Origin: Alphaproteobacteria bacterium
Lineage (GTDB): Bacteria; Pseudomonadota; Alphaproteobacteria; MPNO01; UBA2964
DNA length: 64,000 nucleotides
Assembly (NCBI GenBank): GCA_012103315.1
Contig: WLWZ01000001.1
Location: 1 to 64,000 of the forward strand
Reading direction: 5' to 3'
Shown: positions 11,410 to 24,220 of the stretch, piece after piece
Position numbering within the stretch: position 1 is the stretch's first letter
How the letters are laid out: the number at the start of each line of letters is the position of its first letter
Translations under genes and position numbers: made by a program
The notes under the pieces: model-generated
Told to the model about the DNA's origin: nothing
Seen by the model: only the letters and a program-made list of their open reading frames with translations
Databases searched by the model: none

Positions 11410-13020
11410 TTAAGCTGCGGCGTGGATTCCCGCCTTGTTGACGTCGTCACCAACGTCCGCTTCGAACTGTTTAAAGTTCTCTTCGAACTGCTTCGCGAGA
11501 TGCTGGGCGGTGTTGTCATATTCGCCCTTGTCGCTCCACGTATTGCGCGGGGCGAGGACTTCGCTCGGAACATCAGGACAGCCTTCAGGCACGAGGAGAC
11601 CGAAGTTCGGATCTTCGGCGACGCCGGTTGTTGCCAGCTTGCCATCAAGGGCAGCGCGCACCATGGCACGGGTGTGAGAGATTTTCATCCGTTCGCCAAC
11701 GCCGTAGGCACCACCGCTCCAGCCGGTATTGACCAGCCAGCAATTGGATTTGTGCTTGGCAATCCGCTCGCCGAGGATCTTGGCATAGACCGTTGGATGA
11801 CGTGGTAGGAAGGGAGCGCCAAAGCAGGTTGAGAAGGTCGCCTCCGCACCAGATGTCATACCGCGCTCGGTACCAGCGACCTTGGCGGTGTAACCCGACA
11901 GGAAGTGATACATCGCCTGCTCAGCTGTCATCTTACTGATTGGCGGCAGAACGCCAAACGCATCAGCGGTCAACATTACGATGTTGTCGGGATGGCCACC
12001 CATGCCGGTGTCGCTGACATTATCGAGGAAATCGATCGGATAGGACGACCGGGCATTTTCGGCCAACGAGCCATCGTCGAAGTCAGGCATCCGTGTTACC
12101 GGGTCCAAGACCACGTTCTCCAGAACCGTGCCAAAGCGACGCGATGCGGCGTAGATTTCGGGCTCGGCTTCAGCGGACAGGTTAATCGTCTTGGCGTAGC
12201 AGCCGCCTTCAAAGTTGAAGACGCCATTATCGGACCAGCCATGCTCGTCATCGCCGATCATCATCCGGGTGGAGTCTGAAGACAGCGTTGTTTTGCCGGT
12301 GCCGGAAAGGCCGAAGAAAATCGCGACATCGCCCTTAGCGCCAACATTGGCGGAGCAATGCATCGTCATGACGCCGAGCGCCGGCAGGATCCAATTCATA
12401 ACACCGAAAATGCTCTTCTTGATCTCACCGGTGTAGTGGCTGCCGCCGACCAAGACAGTCTTGGACGGGATATTGACCAGGATGCAGACTTCACTACTGG
12501 TGCCGTCGGTCTCTGGGTTTGAGTGGAAGTCAGGAGCCTGAATGACGGTCCATTCTGGCTGGAAGCCGGCCAGTTCTTCATTGGCGGGCTGGATAAACAT
12601 GTTACGGGCAAACAGGCTGTGCCAGGCATTCTCGGTGATAATCCGGACGGGCAAGCGATAAGCCGGGTCGGCACCGCAATAGCAATCTTGAACAAAGACT
12701 TCTTTGTCTTTCAGATAATCCATCATGCGGGCATGTACCGCTGTAAACTTGTCGGCACCGAGTGGCTGATTGACAGGGCCCCACCAGACATCGTCCTGGA
12801 TCGAAGGATCCTCAATCATGAACTTATCTTTGGGCGACCGTCCGGTATATTCACCCGTCTCAGTGACAAACGCACCATCAATGGACAGGACACCTTCTTT
12901 GCGTCGTAGACCAGATTCATAGAGCTGCGGTGCAGTCTGATTCCAATGAACTGATGAGTTTCCCGTCAGTCCCTGATTATTGACGCCGAAGTTGCTTATA
13001 TAAGGTCCAATATCCGCCAC
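11410..13020 (-). CDS. pckA: Phosphoenolpyruvate carboxykinase (ATP)
   Basis: A 536-residue ATP-type PEP carboxykinase, which converts oxaloacetate and ATP to PEP, CO2 and ADP at the start of gluconeogenesis. The kinase P-loop FGLSGTGKTTLSSD is at about 236-249, the PEPCK signature region LIGDDEHGW-like (MMIGDDEHGWSDNGVFNFEGGCYAK) follows, and the metal/substrate residues in VLVGGSHYTGEIKKS and TGRSPKDKF are present. Length is normal. The GTG start at 13020 follows GGAGAG. A 7-bp leader hairpin (ATCGCCG with CGGCGAT) lies just upstream of the ribosome site. In rhizobia pckA sits near chvI and is affected by ChvI, and the same neighbourhood is kept here. Confidence 0.97.
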   Translation of the reverse strand: MADIGPYISNFGVNNQGLTGNSSVHWNQTAPQLYESGLRRKEGVLSIDGAFVTETGEYTGRSPKDKFMIEDPSIQDDVWWGPVNQPLGADKFTAVHARMMDYLKDKEVFVQDCYCGADPAYRLPVRIITENAWHSLFARNMFIQPANEELAGFQPEWTVIQAPDFHSNPETDGTSSEVCILVNIPSKTVLVGGSHYTGEIKKSIFGVMNWILPALGVMTMHCSANVGAKGDVAIFFGLSGTGKTTLSSDSTRMMIGDDEHGWSDNGVFNFEGGCYAKTINLSAEAEPEIYAASRRFGTVLENVVLDPVTRMPDFDDGSLAENARSSYPIDFLDNVSDTGMGGHPDNIVMLTADAFGVLPPISKMTAEQAMYHFLSGYTAKVAGTERGMTSGAEATFSTCFGAPFLPRHPTVYAKILGERIAKHKSNCWLVNTGWSGGAYGVGERMKISHTRAMVRAALDGKLATTGVAEDPNFGLLVPEGCPDVPSEVLAPRNTWSDKGEYDNTAQHLAKQFEENFKQFEADVGDDVNKAGIHAAA

Positions 13021-14093: not shown

Positions 14094-14837
14094 ATGGATA
14101 CGCTAGAAAGACCAATTAATATCGGAGGGTTACCCGTGGGGCACACAATTGCATTGGTTGATGATGATCGGAATATTCTGACATCGGTGACAATGGCGTT
14201 GGAAGCTGAAGGATTTGATGTTCAAAGCTTTACCGATGGTGATGCCGCGCTGCGCGGATTAAGCGCTCGACCGGTCGATCTTGCAATCCTTGATATCAAA
14301 ATGCCGCGGATGGATGGTATGGAGCTTCTCCAGCGTCTTCGCAAACAGAGCGACTTGCCGGTTATCTTTCTGACATCAAAAGATGACGAGGTTGATGAAA
14401 TTCTAGGTCTCCGGATGGGGGCTGATGATTATGTCAAAAAGCCGTTCTCGCAGCGTCTCCTTCTGGAACGTATTCAGGCTTTACTACGCCGCCGGGACCG
14501 GATGGATTCCATTGGTGACGATGATGATTCTGAGCCACCAATCGTGCGTGGCGATCTCATTCTCGACACGTCACGTCACCTTTGCACCTGGCGGACGGAA
14601 CCCGTTAATCTTACGGTGACCGAATTTCTTATTGTAAAAGTGCTGGCCGCGCGTCCCGGGCTCGTTAAAAATCGAGATCAACTAATGGACGCGGCCTATG
14701 GGGAACACATTTATGTCGACGATCGAACAATCGATAGCCACATCAAACGGCTTCGCAAGAAGTTCAAAGCTGTCGATGATGATTTCGATTATATCGAAAC
14801 CCTCTATGGGATCGGTTACCGCTACCGAGACGCGTGA
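14094..14837 (+). CDS. chvI: Response regulator ChvI
   Basis: An OmpR-class response regulator. The receiver domain opens [21 protein letters not shown], has the phospho-acceptor Asp67 in [13 protein letters not shown] and the conserved Lys in [17 protein letters not shown]. The C-terminal winged helix (about 150-247) ends [18 protein letters not shown]. This closely matches rhizobial ChvI. Two starts are plausible: ATG 14094 (GGGAG eight bases before) or GTG 14136 (GGAGGG nine bases before); the latter fits the usual family start before HTIALVDDD. ChvI is phosphorylated by ChvG, encoded next, and controls envelope, exopolysaccharide and acid-response genes in relatives. The stop is 6 bp before chvG. 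Confidence 0.93.
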
Positions 14838-14843
14838 TCCCCC

Positions 14844-16529
14844 TTGGCGCTGAGACTTAATCTCAGCGCGGAGGACAGGGGGCGTCAATCGACAGTTGCT
14901 GGCGATGCCGATCCGGGGCTGGCGGAGTCTGCCCGGGTTGGGCGCCGTGGGTTCTTGTCGCCTCTTACCCGCCGCATTCTTGTAGTCAATGTTCTCGCTT
15001 TGGCGATCCTTTTAGCGGGGTTGCTCTATCTCGGTCGCTATGAGCAAAACCTGATTGCGTCAGAGATCGCGGCGCTCCGCACCCAGGGCGAGATTTTTGC
15101 AGAAGCATTGGCGGAAGGCGCCTACGGCACGCGTGCTGATGGCACAACTGAGCTTCAAGGTGCTATCGCCTCGACGATGTTGCGTCGTTTGGTGACGCCG
15201 ACCAAAAATCGAACGAGGCTATTCGATCAGGATGGGTTATTGGTCGCCGACAGCCGTACACTCTTGGGCCCCCAGGGTGCTTCGATCTCTGTGAGCGAGC
15301 TTCCGCCACCAGATGCGGACTCTTCAATAGGCGATGTGTTTGATCAGACTTATAAAGAGATCATTGAGTGGTTACCAGGCCGTGGCCTGCCGCTCTATGA
15401 AGAACGTCCTGACCAACGTGCTGCAGATTATGAAGAGGTGGCGCGCGCGTTAGAAGGCGGGCCGGCATCGGCCCTGCGGGTCGATGATGCGGATCAGCTG
15501 GTGATCGGTGTCGCTATCCCGGTTAAGCGCTTCAAGCAAGTTATTGGTGCGGTGTTTGTTGTTCGTGATGGGGCGACGATTGAGGAAGCTGTCCGGTCGG
15601 TCCGGATCGATATCCTAACAATTTTTGCGGCGGCGCTATTTGTGACGGTTCTGCTGTCGGTCTATCTCGGTAGTACAATTGTGCGCCCGCTGCGGCGGTT
15701 GGCTGCCGCTGCTGATGAGATCAGGAGCGCCCCCGGTAAGGTACGGTCTATACCGGAATTCAGAGGCCGCAATGACGAAATCGGAGATCTGGCCGCGGAC
15801 TTGAACGCCATGACTGACGCTCTTTCGCAACGTCTTGATGCCATCGAGAGTTTTGCGGCTGATGTTGCTCATGAGCTAAAGAACCCGTTGACGTCGCTCC
15901 GCAGCGCGGTGGAGACAGCAGCACGTCTTAAAGACCATGATCAGCAAAGTAAGTTGATGGAGATAATTCAGGATGATGTGACTCGTCTGGATCGTCTTAT
16001 ATCGGATATCTCAGATGCCTCGCGGTTGGATGCCGAGTTATCGCGTGACGAGACAGACAAGATTGACCTCAATCGGCTCTTGGCCGCTTTGGTTGAAGTG
16101 CATCGTACTTCTGGCAGTCATGGTGATCGGCAGATTGCTTTCGAAGAAACATCTAAAGGGCCCTTTTCTATAATGGGAAATGAAGGACGTGTTGCCCAGG
16201 TCCTGCAAAACTTAATCACCAATGCATTTTCCTTTAGCCCGCCCCAGGGTCTTGTCATGGTTCGGATCGGACGTGATCGGGACTGGATTGTTGCGACAAT
16301 CGAAGATGAAGGCCCTGGCATTCCGCACGCTAGTTTGGAAAAAATCTTTGACCGGTTTTACAGCGAACGCCCCGACTCTGAGCAGTTTGGAACACATTCT
16401 GGGTTGGGGCTGAGTATTTCACGTCAGATCGTAGCGGCACATCAAGGAAAGATAGAAGCCGAAAATCGAACAGATCTGCATGATAAGGTGCTTGGGGCCC
16501 GCTTTATTGTCAGACTGCCGGTCTCGTGA
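14844..16529 (+). CDS. chvG: Sensor histidine kinase ChvG
   Basis: A 561-residue membrane sensor kinase. A first membrane segment at about 43-62 (ILVVNVLALAILLAGLLYLG) is followed by a periplasmic region of ~190 residues, a second segment at about 255-275, HAMP (about 275-330: STIVRPLRRLAAAADEI), then HisKA with His343 in FAADVAHELKNPLTSLRSA and a HATPase domain with VLQNLITNAFSFSP, EDEGPGIP and GLGLSISRQI. In relatives, periplasmic ExoR inhibits this kinase; no exoR gene is in the window. The start is TTG at 14844, since no ATG is available near the membrane segment. Its stop overlaps the hprK start by four bases, which couples the envelope sensor to the PTS genes. Confidence 0.92.
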   Translation: MALRLNLSAEDRGRQSTVAGDADPGLAESARVGRRGFLSPLTRRILVVNVLALAILLAGLLYLGRYEQNLIASEIAALRTQGEIFAEALAEGAYGTRADGTTELQGAIASTMLRRLVTPTKNRTRLFDQDGLLVADSRTLLGPQGASISVSELPPPDADSSIGDVFDQTYKEIIEWLPGRGLPLYEERPDQRAADYEEVARALEGGPASALRVDDADQLVIGVAIPVKRFKQVIGAVFVVRDGATIEEAVRSVRIDILTIFAAALFVTVLLSVYLGSTIVRPLRRLAAAADEIRSAPGKVRSIPEFRGRNDEIGDLAADLNAMTDALSQRLDAIESFAADVAHELKNPLTSLRSAVETAARLKDHDQQSKLMEIIQDDVTRLDRLISDISDASRLDAELSRDETDKIDLNRLLAALVEVHRTSGSHGDRQIAFEETSKGPFSIMGNEGRVAQVLQNLITNAFSFSPPQGLVMVRIGRDRDWIVATIEDEGPGIPHASLEKIFDRFYSERPDSEQFGTHSGLGLSISRQIVAAHQGKIEAENRTDLHDKVLGARFIVRLPVS

Positions 16530-16954
16530 CCGGTGAGAAGGAAATGCTCGTCCATGCAACTTGCGTCGCAATAGGTGACGTGGGGGTTTTGCTTCGCGGT
16601 TCCCCAGGGAGTGGAAAATCTGACTTAGCTCTGCGCTTGATAGATGGCGGCGCTAAGCTCGTGGCTGATGACCAGGTTTCTATCGTTGCTGTGTCAGGAT
16701 TGCTGCAGGCCAGTGCGCCAGAAGTTCTTCGTGGTAAAATCGAAGTGCGGGGATGCGGTATTCTTGAAATTCCCTTTCAAGAAATAGTCTCGTTGCGGTT
16801 GGCAATAGACCTCGTTGCGCGCGCAGATGTACCCCGTCTACCGGAAGATTCTATCTGCGATATCGGGGGGCTGGTGCTGTCCCTGTATCGATTGCACGTC
16901 TTCGACCCATCCTGTCCGGCAAAGGTGCGATCAATCGCAACGCGGTTGGATTGA
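16526..16954 (+). CDS. hprK: Short HPr kinase/phosphorylase
   Basis: A 142-residue HprK C-terminal-type kinase, as found in alphaproteobacteria, without the N-terminal domain of the Gram-positive enzyme (~310 residues). The P-loop GSPGSGKSDLAL is at 25-36, a Walker B-like LVADDQV at about 48-54, and the HprK signature region KIEVRGCGILEIPF at about 72-85. It phosphorylates HPr on a Ser, here Ser46 of the PtsH encoded 1.5 kb downstream. The GTG start overlaps the chvG stop (GTGA). The chvI-chvG-hprK-rapZ-EIIA-ptsH order is a known alphaproteobacterial arrangement that links envelope sensing to carbon/nitrogen phosphorelay control. Confidence 0.93.
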   Translation: MTGEKEMLVHATCVAIGDVGVLLRGSPGSGKSDLALRLIDGGAKLVADDQVSIVAVSGLLQASAPEVLRGKIEVRGCGILEIPFQEIVSLRLAIDLVARADVPRLPEDSICDIGGLVLSLYRLHVFDPSCPAKVRSIATRLD

Positions 16955-17024
16955 AAATGATGATTGGCGGTATTGTTAGATCGCTTGCCGTTCGGAATAC
17001 AAAGCGCAATAGTAACGCCCGAAT

Positions 17025-17966
17025 ATGACCATGGCCGCAAAAAACAACTCAGGTCTCGGCAGCGACGCCGCCCTTGGGGACGCCACCGACCGGACACCGG
17101 TTCTTCTGGTGACCGGGATCTCCGGTGCCGGGCGTTCAACGACGCTAAAAATCCTTGAAGACTTAGGATATGAGGCCGTTGATAATTTGCCGCTTACCCT
17201 GTTGCCGAGTCTTGTAGTTCCTGCGCTCGGAACCCGTCGACCCCTAGCCATCGGCATCGATGTTCGAACCCGGGATTTCGGTGTTGAACAGTTTTTGCAC
17301 GAAATCGACACTCTCATCGCCCGCGCCGATCTAGAGGCCCGGATGGTTTTTCTGGATTGTGATGATGAGGTGTTGCAACGCCGGTTTACAGAAACGCGGC
17401 GGCGACATCCGCTGGCGGCAGACCGGCCGGTGATGGACGGTATTCAACATGAAAGACGGTCGGTCGTACCGCTTCGTGATCGGGCCGATTTGGTCGTCGA
17501 CACGTCGCAACTCTCTCTGAACGATTTGCGACGACTCCTTAAGGGCCATTTTACGCTTGAAATTGAAGCATCTTTTGCCGTTTCTGTAATGTCGTTTTCC
17601 TATCGGAATGGCATTCCGCGAGAGGCGGATTTAGTCTTTGATGCACGTTTTCTAGCTAATCCTCATTATGAGGAAACCTTAAAACCTCTGACCGGACAGG
17701 ACGCACGTGTTGCTAAATTTGTATCGGATGATCCAGGCTTCCACGACTTTTTCCAGTCCCTAACCGGATTGTTGCAACCGCTTCTGCCGCGCTTTCAGAA
17801 TGAAGGCAAAAGCTATCTTACGATCGCTATCGGCTGTACCGGGGGGCAACATCGTTCAGTCTTCGTCGCTGAAGAACTAGTGGCATGGCTCAATAAAAAC
17901 GGCCAACATGCCGGTGTAATGCATCGGGAGCTGCGCGATGTTGAAACCCATATCGAAAAGAAATGA
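17025..17966 (+). CDS. rapZ: RapZ-family nucleotide-binding protein (RNase adapter)
   Basis: A 313-residue YvcJ/RapZ family P-loop protein. The Walker A GISGAGRST is at 31-39 followed by LKILEDLGYEAVDNLPLTLL, and the C-terminal domain carries the family signature YLTIAIGCTGGQHRSVFVAEEL. In enterobacteria RapZ binds the sRNA GlmZ and guides its cleavage by RNase E, controlling glucosamine-6-phosphate synthase. In alphaproteobacteria the target is not known, although the gene stays with hprK and PTS genes. The ATG at 17025 is preceded by another ATG two codons downstream. The EIIA gene starts 7 bp after its stop. Confidence 0.92.
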   Translation: MTMAAKNNSGLGSDAALGDATDRTPVLLVTGISGAGRSTTLKILEDLGYEAVDNLPLTLLPSLVVPALGTRRPLAIGIDVRTRDFGVEQFLHEIDTLIARADLEARMVFLDCDDEVLQRRFTETRRRHPLAADRPVMDGIQHERRSVVPLRDRADLVVDTSQLSLNDLRRLLKGHFTLEIEASFAVSVMSFSYRNGIPREADLVFDARFLANPHYEETLKPLTGQDARVAKFVSDDPGFHDFFQSLTGLLQPLLPRFQNEGKSYLTIAIGCTGGQHRSVFVAEELVAWLNKNGQHAGVMHRELRDVETHIEKK

Positions 17967-17973
17967 ACGCCGT

Positions 17974-18387
17974 ATGATTGGAATAGTACTCGTAACCCAT
18001 GGACAGCTCGCTGATGAATTTCTCAGTGCAATGGTTCATATCGTCGGCGAACAGGAGAATACCGCGACAATCTGTATTCAGCCTGATGATGATATGGAAA
18101 AACGCCGGTCCGATATTCTCGACGCTGTAAAAAATGTGGAGAATGGCGAGGGCGTAATACTTCTAACGGATATGTTTGGAGGTACACCCTCTAATCTAGC
18201 GATTTCGGTAATGGGGGAAGGGGAAGGCAAAGTCGAGGTGATTGCCGGTGTAAATTTGCCGATGCTGATTCAGTTGGCACGGACGCGCCAAACGCAATCT
18301 CTTGAGGATGCTGTGACTGATGCTCAGGAAGCTGGAAAAAAGTATATCAGTGTTGCATCCAAACTTCTCGCTGATCGCAAAGGCTAG
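17974..18387 (+). CDS. PTS mannose/fructose-type EIIA protein
   Basis: A 137-residue EIIA of the mannose family. The phosphorylated His9 lies in the N-terminal MIGIVLVTHGQLADEF, and the conserved LLTDMFGGTPSNLAI follows at about 67-81. I chose the ATG at 17974; the frame extends upstream to 17938 but those codons lie inside rapZ. It receives phosphate from HPr. There is no EIIB, EIIC or EIID gene nearby, so this is a regulatory rather than sugar-transporting PTS. It is 7 bp after rapZ and 50 bp before ptsH. In rhizobia the equivalent (ManX/EIIA-Man) affects carbon metabolism. Confidence 0.92.
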   Translation: MIGIVLVTHGQLADEFLSAMVHIVGEQENTATICIQPDDDMEKRRSDILDAVKNVENGEGVILLTDMFGGTPSNLAISVMGEGEGKVEVIAGVNLPMLIQLARTRQTQSLEDAVTDAQEAGKKYISVASKLLADRKG

Positions 18388-18812: not shown

Positions 18813-20135
<1,323 letters not shown>

Positions 20136-20203: not shown

Positions 20204-22654
20204 ATGCGAGTACAGCGCTTTTGCCGAATTATCTTCGGTGCTTGTTTGATGCTTGGTTGTGGCGTAAGCCCGGCGCTGGCACAAACCAACCCCACATCCT
20301 TGGTCCCTGGCCCCCTGGTGGCGATCTTTGCCATTGCCTTTATCGCGGCCGCGGCCACGGCTCTATTCTATTCCTCTAAGGTACGCCGTTTAACGGCGCA
20401 AAACGCAGCATTAGATTCTGAGCTGGGCATGCGGGATGCAATGTCCTTGTTGCGTCAGGAACAGGCTATCCTGTGGCCTTTTGATAAAGATATCGAAATT
20501 GTATCGGCGGGGTTTGCGTCGTCTCTCGATATTGAGGGTTCAGACGACAATCAGTTTTCTGTTTTTTTGGACCAGCTGAAGCCCGAGGATGCCGAAGCGC
20601 TCCAAGCTGCTGTTCATACATTACGACATGATCGTCAGCCATTTTTGTTGACGGTGGCTACAGCAGATATGACACGAACTTTTTTAGTGCGTGGTGATAG
20701 CGTCGTTGCGGATGCGTCCGGTGCGGCCATTATGTTGGTCTCGGATCGCACGATAGAGGCGGCGCGCGTTGAACGATTATCGACGGATGCCGCACAGATG
20801 CATGAGCTTCTTGATGCGCTGCCGATTCCTGTGTGGCTTCGGGATGACCAGCAACGGCTTCAATATGTCAATCAGGCTTACCGCGAAGCCGTCGAGGTTG
20901 GGGAAAGTCTGGTCACGGATCAGTTGCCTGAAATTTCTGCTGGTACCGGGTCGCAGAGCGCCAAAGCACTTGCTGAGCGGACTGTTTTAGAAAATGCGCC
21001 ACAAAGCGATCGGCAGCATGTCGTTATGGGTGGCGCCCGTCACTATGTTGAATTGATCGAGATCCCGATGGCACCGACCGGCGGCACCGCCGGGTTTGCG
21101 CTCGACCTTACCCAGCTTGAAGAGGTGCAGGCCGAGCTGTCACGCCATGTTGCAGGTCAGGAGGTAATTTTACAAAATCTGGGTACTGCGATCGCAATCT
21201 ATGATGCGGATCAGTCCCTACAATTCTTCAATAATGCGTTTCTTCAGCTATGGGGGCTCGACGAAGCATTGCTAAGGGGAACACCGCGGATGGGTGAAGT
21301 TCTCGAACAGCTACGTGAGAACAGGCGGCTTCCTGAATATGCCGATTTTCCGGCATTTAAGAATGAACAGCTGCGCCTTTTCACGACGCTGATTGAGCCG
21401 GTCGAGGAGATGGTTCATTTGCCGGATGGCACGACTCTTCGATCTGTTGCAATTCCGCATCCTTTCGGAGGTCTGCTACTGCTTTGGGAGGATGTTACCG
21501 ACACATTGGCCTTAGAGCGCAATTACAACACTTTGATCGCTGTGCAGAGAGAGACTCTCGATAATCTGTTCGAGGGTGTCGCTGTGATCGGTGCGAATGG
21601 CCGGTTGCGGCTTTCCAATCCTGCGTTTGGTAGCATGTGGCAAATTCCCCCCCATGAGCTGGCGAATGAGCCGCATATTTCTGAAATTGCCAATCATATT
21701 TCCGACCTAATCGGTGAAATGGATGAATTGCATACTGGCCAGCAACAGCTCATTGGTATTCTCACAGACCGCGATTCCCATAGTGGCAGAATGGAACGTG
21801 TTGACGGTAGTGTTCTTGACTATGCCACCGTGCCGCTGCCCGATGGCGCAGTACTACTGAGTTTTCTTGATGTGTCAGCGGCGATCAACATGGAACGAGC
21901 CCTGCGCGAACGCAACGAGGCCCTGGAAACAGCGGATCAACTCAAGTCTGAATTTATTGCCAACGTTTCTTATGAGCTTCGAACGCCACTGAACACAATT
22001 ATTGGATTTACCGAAATTCTAGGCGGTGAATATTTTGGTGATCTCAATGATCGGCAGACGGAATATACTGGCGGAATTTTGGAGTCTTCCAATCGATTGC
22101 TGCTGCTCATCAACGATATTCTCGATCTGGCGACAATCGAAGCCGGACATATGAGTCTTGAGCTCGACTCAATAGACATCAACGCCTTCCTGAATAGCGC
22201 TCTGGGGCTGGTGCATGAAAGGGCGCGGCAGAAAAAATTGACGATAGAGTGTGATTGCCCTCCCGATATCGGTGCCATGGTCGCTGATGAACGACGGCTC
22301 AAACAGGCGATCTTTAATATCTTGTCGAATGCCGTCAAATTTACGCCGGATAATGGCAATATTGTTGTTTCAGCCCGTCGGCAGGGCGACGAAATCGTCT
22401 TAACGACGAGTGATAGTGGAATCGGCATTACCCCCGCTGATCGCGACCGTGTTTTTGCAAAATTCGAGCGTGGTTCGAGCACTGAGGCCCGTCGATCCGG
22501 GGCTGGATTAGGTCTCTCACTGGTGAAAAGTTTTGTCGAAATGCATGGCGGAAAGGTCGCGCTGGAATCCGGACCTGAGGATGGTACGCGTGTCATTTGT
22601 ACCTTGCCATCCCGCGCTGCGCCGTTGATGCTTCCCCCCGACGTGCCGGTATAG
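20204..22654 (+). CDS. divL: DivL-like PAS sensor kinase with Tyr at the phospho-acceptor site
   Basis: An 816-residue membrane-anchored kinase-like protein. N-terminal hydrophobic segments (about 8-25 and 37-57) are followed by three PAS-like regions (about 195-310, 325-440, 450-560), a HisKA dimerisation domain and a complete HATPase domain (NILSNAVKFTP, DSGIGITP, GAGLGLSLVKSF). The H-box reads ANVSYELRTPLN: Tyr590 stands where histidine kinases have His. That substitution is the hallmark of Caulobacter DivL, which binds DivK and controls the CckA-CtrA cell-cycle pathway. The position between ahcY and tsaE also fits. The intact ATP-binding boxes suggest that nucleotide binding is kept. cckA, divK and ctrA are not in the window. 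Confidence 0.85.
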   Translation: MRVQRFCRIIFGACLMLGCGVSPALAQTNPTSLVPGPLVAIFAIAFIAAAATALFYSSKVRRLTAQNAALDSELGMRDAMSLLRQEQAILWPFDKDIEIVSAGFASSLDIEGSDDNQFSVFLDQLKPEDAEALQAAVHTLRHDRQPFLLTVATADMTRTFLVRGDSVVADASGAAIMLVSDRTIEAARVERLSTDAAQMHELLDALPIPVWLRDDQQRLQYVNQAYREAVEVGESLVTDQLPEISAGTGSQSAKALAERTVLENAPQSDRQHVVMGGARHYVELIEIPMAPTGGTAGFALDLTQLEEVQAELSRHVAGQEVILQNLGTAIAIYDADQSLQFFNNAFLQLWGLDEALLRGTPRMGEVLEQLRENRRLPEYADFPAFKNEQLRLFTTLIEPVEEMVHLPDGTTLRSVAIPHPFGGLLLLWEDVTDTLALERNYNTLIAVQRETLDNLFEGVAVIGANGRLRLSNPAFGSMWQIPPHELANEPHISEIANHISDLIGEMDELHTGQQQLIGILTDRDSHSGRMERVDGSVLDYATVPLPDGAVLLSFLDVSAAINMERALRERNEALETADQLKSEFIANVSYELRTPLNTIIGFTEILGGEYFGDLNDRQTEYTGGILESSNRLLLLINDILDLATIEAGHMSLELDSIDINAFLNSALGLVHERARQKKLTIECDCPPDIGAMVADERRLKQAIFNILSNAVKFTPDNGNIVVSARRQGDEIVLTTSDSGIGITPADRDRVFAKFERGSSTEARRSGAGLGLSLVKSFVEMHGGKVALESGPEDGTRVICTLPSRAAPLMLPPDVPV

Positions 22655-22716: not shown

Positions 22717-23214
22717 ATGGCCATTGACCACACATCTAGCACTACTATGACACTTGCCGATATCTCGGCAACGGAGCGTTTGGCCGGTCGTCTGGCATCG
22801 ATCCTTAAACCTGGCGACGTCGTGGCCTTATCTGGTGATCTCGGAACCGGCAAGACAGTTCTCGCACGGGCAGTTATCCGGACGCTGGCAATGGCAAATA
22901 ACGTGGATGTTGACGATATTCCGAGCCCGACCTTTACACTGGTCCAGCAATATGAATTTCCTGAGTTTGCATTGTTCCATATTGATCTTTATCGGATTGA
23001 TCGATCATCCGACGTGCTTGAACTCGGCATTGAGGACTTCTTTGCTGACGGTGTCTCTCTAATCGAATGGCCGGAACGGCTAGAGGGCTATTTACCAACG
23101 GACCGATTGCATTTGACCCTGCTCCCTGGTGATCATGAAGCCGCCCGAATGCTGCAAATTGAAAAAAGTGGCAGTTGGTTGAAAAGAGATTTGGAGCTCA
23201 CAAAAGATGGCTGA
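22717..23214 (+). CDS. tsaE: tRNA threonylcarbamoyladenosine biosynthesis ATPase TsaE
   Basis: A 165-residue P-loop ATPase of the TsaE/YjeE family, which works with TsaB, TsaC and TsaD to make t6A37 in tRNAs that read ANN codons. Walker A is in ALSGDLGTGKTVLARAVIR; the family segments IPSPTFTLVQQYEF, LFHIDLYRID and DGVSLIEWPERLEGYLP follow in order. I chose the ATG at 22717; the frame opens at 22597, inside the end of the kinase gene, with unsupported residues. Its 3' end overlaps the amgK start by 8 bp. This begins the tsaE-amgK-murU-addB-addA run of overlapping genes. Confidence 0.93.
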   Translation: MAIDHTSSTTMTLADISATERLAGRLASILKPGDVVALSGDLGTGKTVLARAVIRTLAMANNVDVDDIPSPTFTLVQQYEFPEFALFHIDLYRIDRSSDVLELGIEDFFADGVSLIEWPERLEGYLPTDRLHLTLLPGDHEAARMLQIEKSGSWLKRDLELTKDG

Positions 23215-24220
23215 TCGGCAGGCACTCATCGAAAGCTTTCTCGGTCAGGAAGGGTGGGGCAATGCTCGACGGACGGCGCTGACAGGTGATGCGTCGTTCA
23301 GACGCTATCACCGGCTCGACGAAAACGGCAGGTACGCCATGTTGATGGATGCGCCGCCGCCGCAAGAAGACATCGGTCCCTTCCTTGCCATTGCACGCCA
23401 CCTCACAGGATTAGGCTACAGCGCGCCACAAATACTCGCTGAGGATCACGAAGCGGGATTTATTCTGCTCGAGGATTTTGGCGATTCAACGTTCACCCGC
23501 TTGCTAGCGGCGGGCGAGGATGAAACCGCACTGTATTTGCTGGCCACCGATGTGTTGATCGACTTGCATAAAAAACCTGCGGCCAAAGCAATTCCGGAGA
23601 ACTTGCCGCAATACGATTCTGGCAAACTCTTAACGGAATCAGCCTTACTGACAGACTGGTTCGTACCTGCTGCGACGGGCAAAGAATTATCGGGTCCTGC
23701 CGCGGAGGAATATCAAAATCGGTGGCGCGATGCCCTTGCCCGCTCTACTGGGGTCCCTGACTCGTTGGTATTGCGCGACTACCATGTCGACAATCTAATG
23801 CGGCTTGATGGGCGCGATGGCATTGCCGCGTGTGGTTTGCTGGATTTTCAGGATGCTCTGGTGGGGCCTGTGACGTATGACTTGGTGTCATTGATTGAAG
23901 ATGCCAGGCGGGATGTGTCCCCGGAGACTGCGGCAGCAGTGACAGCCCGCTACCTCGCAGCCTTTCCTGATCTTGATCCGGACGATTTTACAAGTTCGAT
24001 GACAGTCTTTGGTGCCCAACGCCATGCCAAGGTCATTGGAATTTTCACGCGGCTTTGTGTACGTGATGGCAAGCCAATTTATCTTGATCATATTCCGCGG
24101 GTCTGGCGGTTGTTGGAGACCGCTTGCCAGCATCCAGACCTTGCCCCGATTAGAGAATGGCTCGACGATCATATTCCGGTCGGCCTGCGCTGTATTCCTG
24201 AAGGGTTGCGGACGTCATGA
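23207..24220 (+). CDS. amgK: Sugar kinase AmgK (N-acetylmuramate/N-acetylglucosamine 1-kinase)
   Basis: A 337-residue aminoglycoside-phosphotransferase-fold kinase. The N-lobe has GDASFRRYHRL and AMLMDAPPPQED. The catalytic loop VLRDYHVDNLMRL has the HxDN form, and the metal-binding Asp is in GLLDFQDALVGPVTYDLVSLI. This sequence type followed directly by a MurU-like nucleotidyltransferase is the anomeric recycling pair, which phosphorylates MurNAc (and GlcNAc) at C1 so that MurU can make UDP-MurNAc while bypassing the fosfomycin-sensitive route. Start and stop overlap tsaE by 8 bp and murU by 4 bp. Older annotations call such proteins simply aminoglycoside phosphotransferases. Confidence 0.88.
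   Translation: MADRQALIESFLGQEGWGNARRTALTGDASFRRYHRLDENGRYAMLMDAPPPQEDIGPFLAIARHLTGLGYSAPQILAEDHEAGFILLEDFGDSTFTRLLAAGEDETALYLLATDVLIDLHKKPAAKAIPENLPQYDSGKLLTESALLTDWFVPAATGKELSGPAAEEYQNRWRDALARSTGVPDSLVLRDYHVDNLMRLDGRDGIAACGLLDFQDALVGPVTYDLVSLIEDARRDVSPETAAAVTARYLAAFPDLDPDDFTSSMTVFGAQRHAKVIGIFTRLCVRDGKPIYLDHIPRVWRLLETACQHPDLAPIREWLDDHIPVGLRCIPEGLRTS

Follow-up and report, generated by a model that had tools for sequence, protein, structure and literature searches.

The protein encoded at positions 20204 to 22654 of the analysed stretch of alphaproteobacterial DNA (64,000 nucleotides, referred to below as the window) is a DivL orthologue that is ordinary for its class, as judged from its sequence, its position in a kinase tree, its fold and its gene neighbourhood. 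DivL is related to signalling kinases but is itself 'dead'; it takes part in timing the bacterial cell cycle and is the textbook case of a histidine kinase that has become a sensor for another response regulator. The overall explanation, in which we have high confidence, is that the window protein is a membrane-anchored pseudokinase with four PAS folds that most likely docks DivK and thereby tunes CckA. The usual output of this system, CtrA, is doubtful in this organism, since the assembly shows its sole ctrA reading frame broken and relatives exist that have divL but no ctrA. The window DivL adds one more member to the family, and its surroundings matter more than the gene: a better lead than DivL itself is a DivK-DivL-CckA module that is kept while CtrA is lost.

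Gene, neighbours and domain layout

The open reading frame lies on the + strand, starts with ATG and encodes a product of 816 amino acid residues. The features of the gene and its neighbours are as follows:

18837..20135, + strand: ahcY, adenosylhomocysteinase, syntenic neighbour directly upstream of divL (656.8 bits to TIGR00936)
20204..22654, + strand: divL, membrane-anchored, PAS-rich pseudo-histidine kinase of 816 residues (sequence, Pfam, tree, model, fold match)
20219..20284, + strand: hydrophobic segment 1, residues 6-27, possible signal peptide or first transmembrane helix (hydropathy)
20300..20377, + strand: hydrophobic segment 2, residues about 33-58, transmembrane helix (hydropathy; model helix 36-82)
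20450..20749, + strand: PAS-like fold 1, residues about 83-182, no Pfam match (secondary structure of the model)
20816..21109, + strand: PAS-like fold 2, residues about 205-302 (Pfam PAS_4 203-305; model)
21176..21496, + strand: PAS-like fold 3, residues about 325-431 (Pfam PAS_8 321-374; model)
21560..21874, + strand: PAS-like fold 4, residues about 453-557 (Pfam PAS_7 452-564; model)
21875..22147, + strand: DHp (HisKA) hairpin, residues 558-648, predicted DivK docking surface (Pfam; model helices 558-607 and 616-648; alignment to 4q20)
21971..21973, + strand: Tyr590 codon TAT, in place of the phospho-His and equivalent to Caulobacter Tyr550 (sequence; alignment to Caulobacter DivL)
22166..22612, + strand: CA (HATPase_c) domain, residues about 655-803, with intact N, G1 and G2 boxes (sequence, Pfam, model)
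22717..23214, + strand: tsaE, syntenic neighbour directly downstream of divL, with a start codon of our choice (99 bits to TIGR00150)
23207..24220, + strand: AmgK/APH-type sugar kinase, third conserved gene of the divL cluster (profile match; gene order in relatives)

The H-box, ANVSYELRTPLN, begins at residue 586 and has Tyr590 inside it; the N-box region, NILSNAVKFTPDNG, was found at 705, DSGIGI at 737 and GAGLGL at 766. Pfam recognised HisKA at residues 581-648 (71.6 bits, cut-off 26.9) and HATPase_c at 695-803 (100.4 bits), together with PAS_7, PAS_8 and PAS_4. The genome from which the window was taken (G000, 4.11 Mb) contains 27 HisKA matches, and only DivL has Tyr in the box, the other 26 all having His, indicating that Tyr590 is not there by chance. 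The predicted structure comprises four PAS-like folds, the DHp hairpin and the CA domain (mean pLDDT 80.3, pTM 0.40); it was built from a 48-row alignment, and the relative placement of its domains is unreliable. The first hydrophobic segment may be a signal peptide.

Upstream of ahcY (14094-18387), the window encodes a response regulator and a ChvG-like kinase, followed by RapZ and a PTS EIIA-man protein. The RapZ-EIIA-ahcY-divL order is also present in one relative (G210) and in three records from metagenome-assembled genomes (L219, L220 and L221).

Assignment to DivL

The closest sequence match in the PDB was Caulobacter DivL (4q20, E 1.9e-46; runner-up, E 6.1e-36), with 94 of the 244 residues aligned to its core identical (39%). 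The same structure topped the second-look list in the fold comparison of the model, a search that took in mainly residues 568-806 (Z 23.6 over 223 residues; next, Z 22.9). A tree of 159 kinase cores, calculated with FastTree only and with support below 80 at some deep forks, placed the window protein among the Tyr-bearing DivLs, with Caulobacter DivL nested within them. Fourteen HisKA-type kinases of the same genome formed a separate group, joined by L205 from another genome, and six further kinases were found on the outgroup side. The order ahcY-divL-tsaE-amgK was kept in relatives, with rapZ and the EIIA gene preceding it where the locus extends far enough. Across the class, ahcY upstream and/or tsaE downstream of divL was found at 103 of 148 loci (both at 47), some of which have short flanks. 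The features that characterise DivL are present: Tyr for the phospho-His, multiple PAS folds and a DHp-CA core behind an N-terminal anchor, and DivK and CckA encoded in the same genome.

We considered whether the protein could instead be a sensor kinase of the DivJ/PleC/PdhS type that has lost its His by chance. Its NCBIfam matches do include DivJ (177.6 bits) and PdhS (155.4 bits), and a DivL family model was not among the 25 matches listed for it, but both scores are far below the respective cut-offs of 1000 and 2000, and Tyr590 stands where these families have His. Conservation of the Tyr throughout the class, the tree and the synteny all place the protein as DivL, and we regard the alternative as extremely improbable.

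A first-pass annotation, made from the letters of the window, had described a DivL-type pseudokinase with Tyr590 for the phospho-His, intact ATP-binding boxes and the same Tyr change in Caulobacter DivL, encoded between ahcY and tsaE. All of this agrees with the present results: the NVSYELRTPL box is identical in 4q20, and the flanking genes were identified by their TIGRFAM matches. Its two N-terminal membrane segments correspond to the two hydrophobic peaks, whereas its count of three PAS-like regions has to be raised to four according to the predicted model. It had also proposed to look for Tyr at this column in the clade and for grouping with DivL in a HisKA tree. Each of the 10 order-level relatives that have a DivL carries Tyr there, and the window protein grouped with Caulobacter DivL, apart from the kinases of its own genome.

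The tyrosine, DivK docking and kinase activity

To place Tyr590 in context, a class sample of 289 genomes was analysed, which gave 150 DivL loci, or 148 from 147 genomes after removal of L212 and L218 as repeats of L039 and L061. The residue in the Tyr column was Tyr in 118 loci, His in five and another residue in 21; three loci had no kinase core and one was unassigned. The available text of earlier reports describes Tyr in all DivLs except one in Magnetospirillum, which has Ala, and a core that is lost in the absence of DivK (PMC4211667, PMC2877005, PMC9430884); compared with that text, exceptions to Tyr are more numerous in our sample. The divergent loci, at first suspected of being mis-hits, stayed in place in a tree made from the PAS region only, and all were kept but L205 (genome G051), which was set aside because its kinase part groups with ordinary kinases. 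The apparent Tyr in L207 was spurious, this locus having no kinase box.

The five His-bearing proteins represent at least three separate changes in the PAS-region tree (L061 with L182, L135 with L137, and L154) and look like reversions, since they fall among Tyr-bearing ones. L135 and L137 are flanked by ahcY and tsaE and retain all the ATP boxes, and L061 also retains the boxes; judging from their sequences, the kinase may be active again in L135 and L137. The Arg equivalent to Caulobacter R553 was present in all 118 Tyr loci versus six of the 21 with other residues. A DivK orthologue (at least 60% identity) accompanied 35 of 38 Tyr loci, five of six His loci (L205 included), five of 21 with another residue and two of three without a core, in 70 genomes that were picked to include non-Tyr ones and are therefore not a random sample (three of them had no DivL locus). 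By independent pairs, of which only three lay on well-supported branches, the association with DivK was not significant. The class-wide table amounts to a natural test of the purpose of the Tyr: it accompanies the docking Arg and, in most cases, DivK, and there have been three or more reversions to His. Such a pattern fits a kinase core that is retained for reading DivK.

Several loci in this table deserve separate mention. Those with other residues (L131, L173, L176, L179, L181, L187-L190, L192, L194, L196, L197, L202 and more) often have eroded G1 and G2 boxes, and mostly occur without a DivK orthologue. L206 and L207 (G194 and G287) are coreless despite a DivK of 72-73% identity, which departs from the rule, as far as the available text of the published work states it, that the core is lost together with DivK. 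Genome G184 has two divL copies, L044 and L099, each with ahcY and tsaE as neighbours; its contamination is about 5%, and mixing is possible.

Comparison with Caulobacter vibrioides DivL (4q20; Childers et al. 2014, PMC4211667) revealed the same NVSYELRTPL Tyr, the same HisKA-HATPase_c core fold and a PAS-rich N-terminus. The docking Arg is also shared (R553, Arg593 in the window DivL), as is A601 (A643). In contrast, T557, Y562 and H579 are replaced by N597, F602 and Y621. In Caulobacter, weaker DivK~P binding resulted from mutation of any of four residues, which include these three, and T557N was itself among the weakening mutations in the part of that paper available (PMC4211667). The residues of the window DivL are those of the family majority: among the 118 Tyr-DivLs, N was found in 92, F in 111 and Y in 111. 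Further differences from Caulobacter are the four PAS folds of the model and the broken ctrA in the assembly.

Full-length DivLs of the Rhodospirillales-like group (e.g. Kiloniella, Nitrospirillum and Pelagibius) have the same length, architecture and Tyr. Their identity to the window DivL is mostly about 42-51%, the closest records being metagenome-assembled (82, 63 and 61%). Tyr was present in 70 of the 70 Rhodospirillales-like loci in which the box pattern was found (10 of 80 were without it), although the pattern ended in SY, which nearly forces this outcome. The short DivL of Rhodobacterales and DvlL of Anaplasmataceae share the PAS-rich N-terminal family with the window DivL; according to the available text of the reports (PMC9430884, PMC2877005, PMC4426382) they have no kinase core and DivK is absent, whereas the window DivL keeps its core and its genome has DivK.

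The observed part of our explanation comprises the sequence, fold, synteny, conservation of the Tyr, tree position and the presence of divK, cckA, chpT and cpdR in the genome. For the mechanism we rely on analogy with the work on Caulobacter DivL, in the part of the paper available (PMC4211667), according to which the window DivL would lack autokinase activity, read DivK~P and control CckA. We propose that the histidine-kinase core would no longer phosphorylate because Tyr590 replaces the acceptor His. The DHp face would instead dock DivK, most likely preferring DivK~P with the help of the PAS domains, and docking could alter the contact between DivL and CckA, thereby shifting the balance between the kinase and phosphatase activities of CckA.

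A working enzyme, in which Tyr590 or another residue is phosphorylated by the intact ATP-binding domain as in a tyrosine kinase, is very unlikely. The N, G1 and G2 boxes of the window DivL would permit it, and the PDB title of 4q20 still says 'tyrosine kinase', but neither kinase nor phosphatase activity was seen for Caulobacter DivL in the available text of the study (PMC4211667). Moreover, the lineages L143, L150, L151, L157, L159, L184 and L185 have eroded ATP boxes and still keep the Tyr, indicating that it is not kept for the use of ATP. The pseudokinase is under purifying selection within the genus: comparison of divL with its 82% identical relative L219 gave a dN of 0.113 and a dS of about 2 (near saturation), with dN lowest in the DHp (0.037) and PAS fold 3 (0.04) and reaching its maximum, 0.18-0.19, in PAS folds 1 and 2.

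Circuit partners and the loss of ctrA

The first-pass annotation had pointed to a CtrA-type circuit, a reading that is only partly borne out, and suggested a search of the genome for divK, cckA, chpT and ctrA. The first three were found in G000. DivK (C17:93450-93809) adjoins PleD; CckA (C24:88934-91468) scored 745 bits to NF046020, under the cut-off of 1000; ChpT (C15:81136-81486) gave 58.8 bits to PF10090, a search that among 14 control genomes matched Caulobacter only. CpdR was also present (170 bits versus a cut-off of 180). The fourth partner fits the claim less well: the sole ctrA (L078:1495-2230; C15:74184 onwards) is divided between two frames. The first frame covers the receiver and part of the DNA-binding domain before it stops after 169 codons; what remains of that domain is read in another frame, and the break is in a CT-rich run. 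NF045991 matched positions 1-165 with 282.6 bits and positions 161-224, in the other frame, with 129.5 bits. Both halves are still highly identical to the intact CtrA of the relative G296 (89% over the first 165 residues and 97% over the downstream 63), so the break must be very recent if it is a real mutation, and is otherwise an artefact of assembly.

The circuit claim was further weakened by the relatives, as ctrA was undetected in 19 of the 20 searched; only G296 had a CtrA above paralogue scores (428 bits, others at most about 180). DivL was found in ten of them (G210, G289, G290, G291, G292, G296, G297, G301, G303 and G305), and was not found in the other ten, some of which are incomplete genomes. 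CckA was present in G210, G290, G291 (as a fragment), G292, G296, G297 and G301, and ChpT in G290, G291 and G296; G305 has a ChpT fragment, and elsewhere the matches were scraps below threshold. DivL without CtrA thus occurs in nine relatives, five of them at least 90% complete, although absence of CtrA or ChpT from draft genomes can reflect missing sequence. G210, a congener (98% complete), has DivL, DivK (98%), CckA (79%) and CpdR (98%), with neither ChpT nor CtrA detectable. G301 (99% complete) has DivL, CckA and CpdR (72%), and ChpT and CtrA were both not found in it.

The ctrA locus has the order fliI-ctrA-cheR-cheB-cheY-cheW-(cheW/REC protein)-cheA-chpT in G000 and G296, where the names of the flagellar and chemotaxis genes follow our own interpretation of the sequences. 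G290, a congener whose genome is a single contig (L394:10231-12149, compared with L393:4639-9866 of G000), has lost ctrA, cheR, cheB and cheY in a clean deletion: fliI ends at L394:11472 and cheW starts at 11686, and the flanking genes are mostly 76-94% identical to those of G000. In G291 (L395), the chemotaxis cluster stops in a partial cheB, and ctrA is gone from the equivalent locus. The divL genes of G290 and G291 are fragmented. We rejected decay as the cause in favour of likely long-read error, because cckA (in both) and flhA and cheW (in G290) are also split between frames; such error cannot account for the absent ctrA block.

Whether DivL still feeds into CtrA here depends on how the break is read. 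Sequencing or assembly error would leave a complete DivL-CckA-ChpT-CtrA circuit, with DivL acting exactly as in Caulobacter, and we give this an even chance; it concerns the output alone, the identity of DivL being common to both readings. The position of the break in a CT-rich run speaks for error, as do the undecayed downstream frame and the fact that ctrA is the best conserved gene of its cluster between G000 and G296. On the other side, the neighbouring frames read through along the 19-kb stretch, of the 21 genomes G000 and G296 alone gave an NF045991 score above those of paralogues, and the congeners are without ctrA: fliI abuts cheW in G290, and only part of cheB is left in G291. We tentatively propose, as a possibility somewhat short of probable, that this genus has uncoupled its DivK-DivL-CckA switch from CtrA. 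The congeners would have lost ctrA by deletion and G000 only just by the frameshift, while purifying selection still acts on DivL, whose Tyr, docking Arg and ATP domain are all preserved. CckA would then use another output, for which the retained CpdR is the obvious candidate, reached in G210 without a recognisable ChpT.

In this lineage, where DivL persists as CtrA disappears, a CtrA circuit should not be taken for granted from the presence of DivL. If true, a genus that loses ctrA but keeps DivK, DivL, CckA and CpdR would make the question of Brilli et al. testable. A literature search, which covered few subscription papers, returned no published report of DivL kept with ctrA deleted inside one genus. 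At a threshold of E 1e-60, CtrA was absent from 14 of the 147 DivL-bearing genomes in the class sample; every one of the 14 has the Tyr, and nine are at least 93% complete. This state is therefore not unique to the order.
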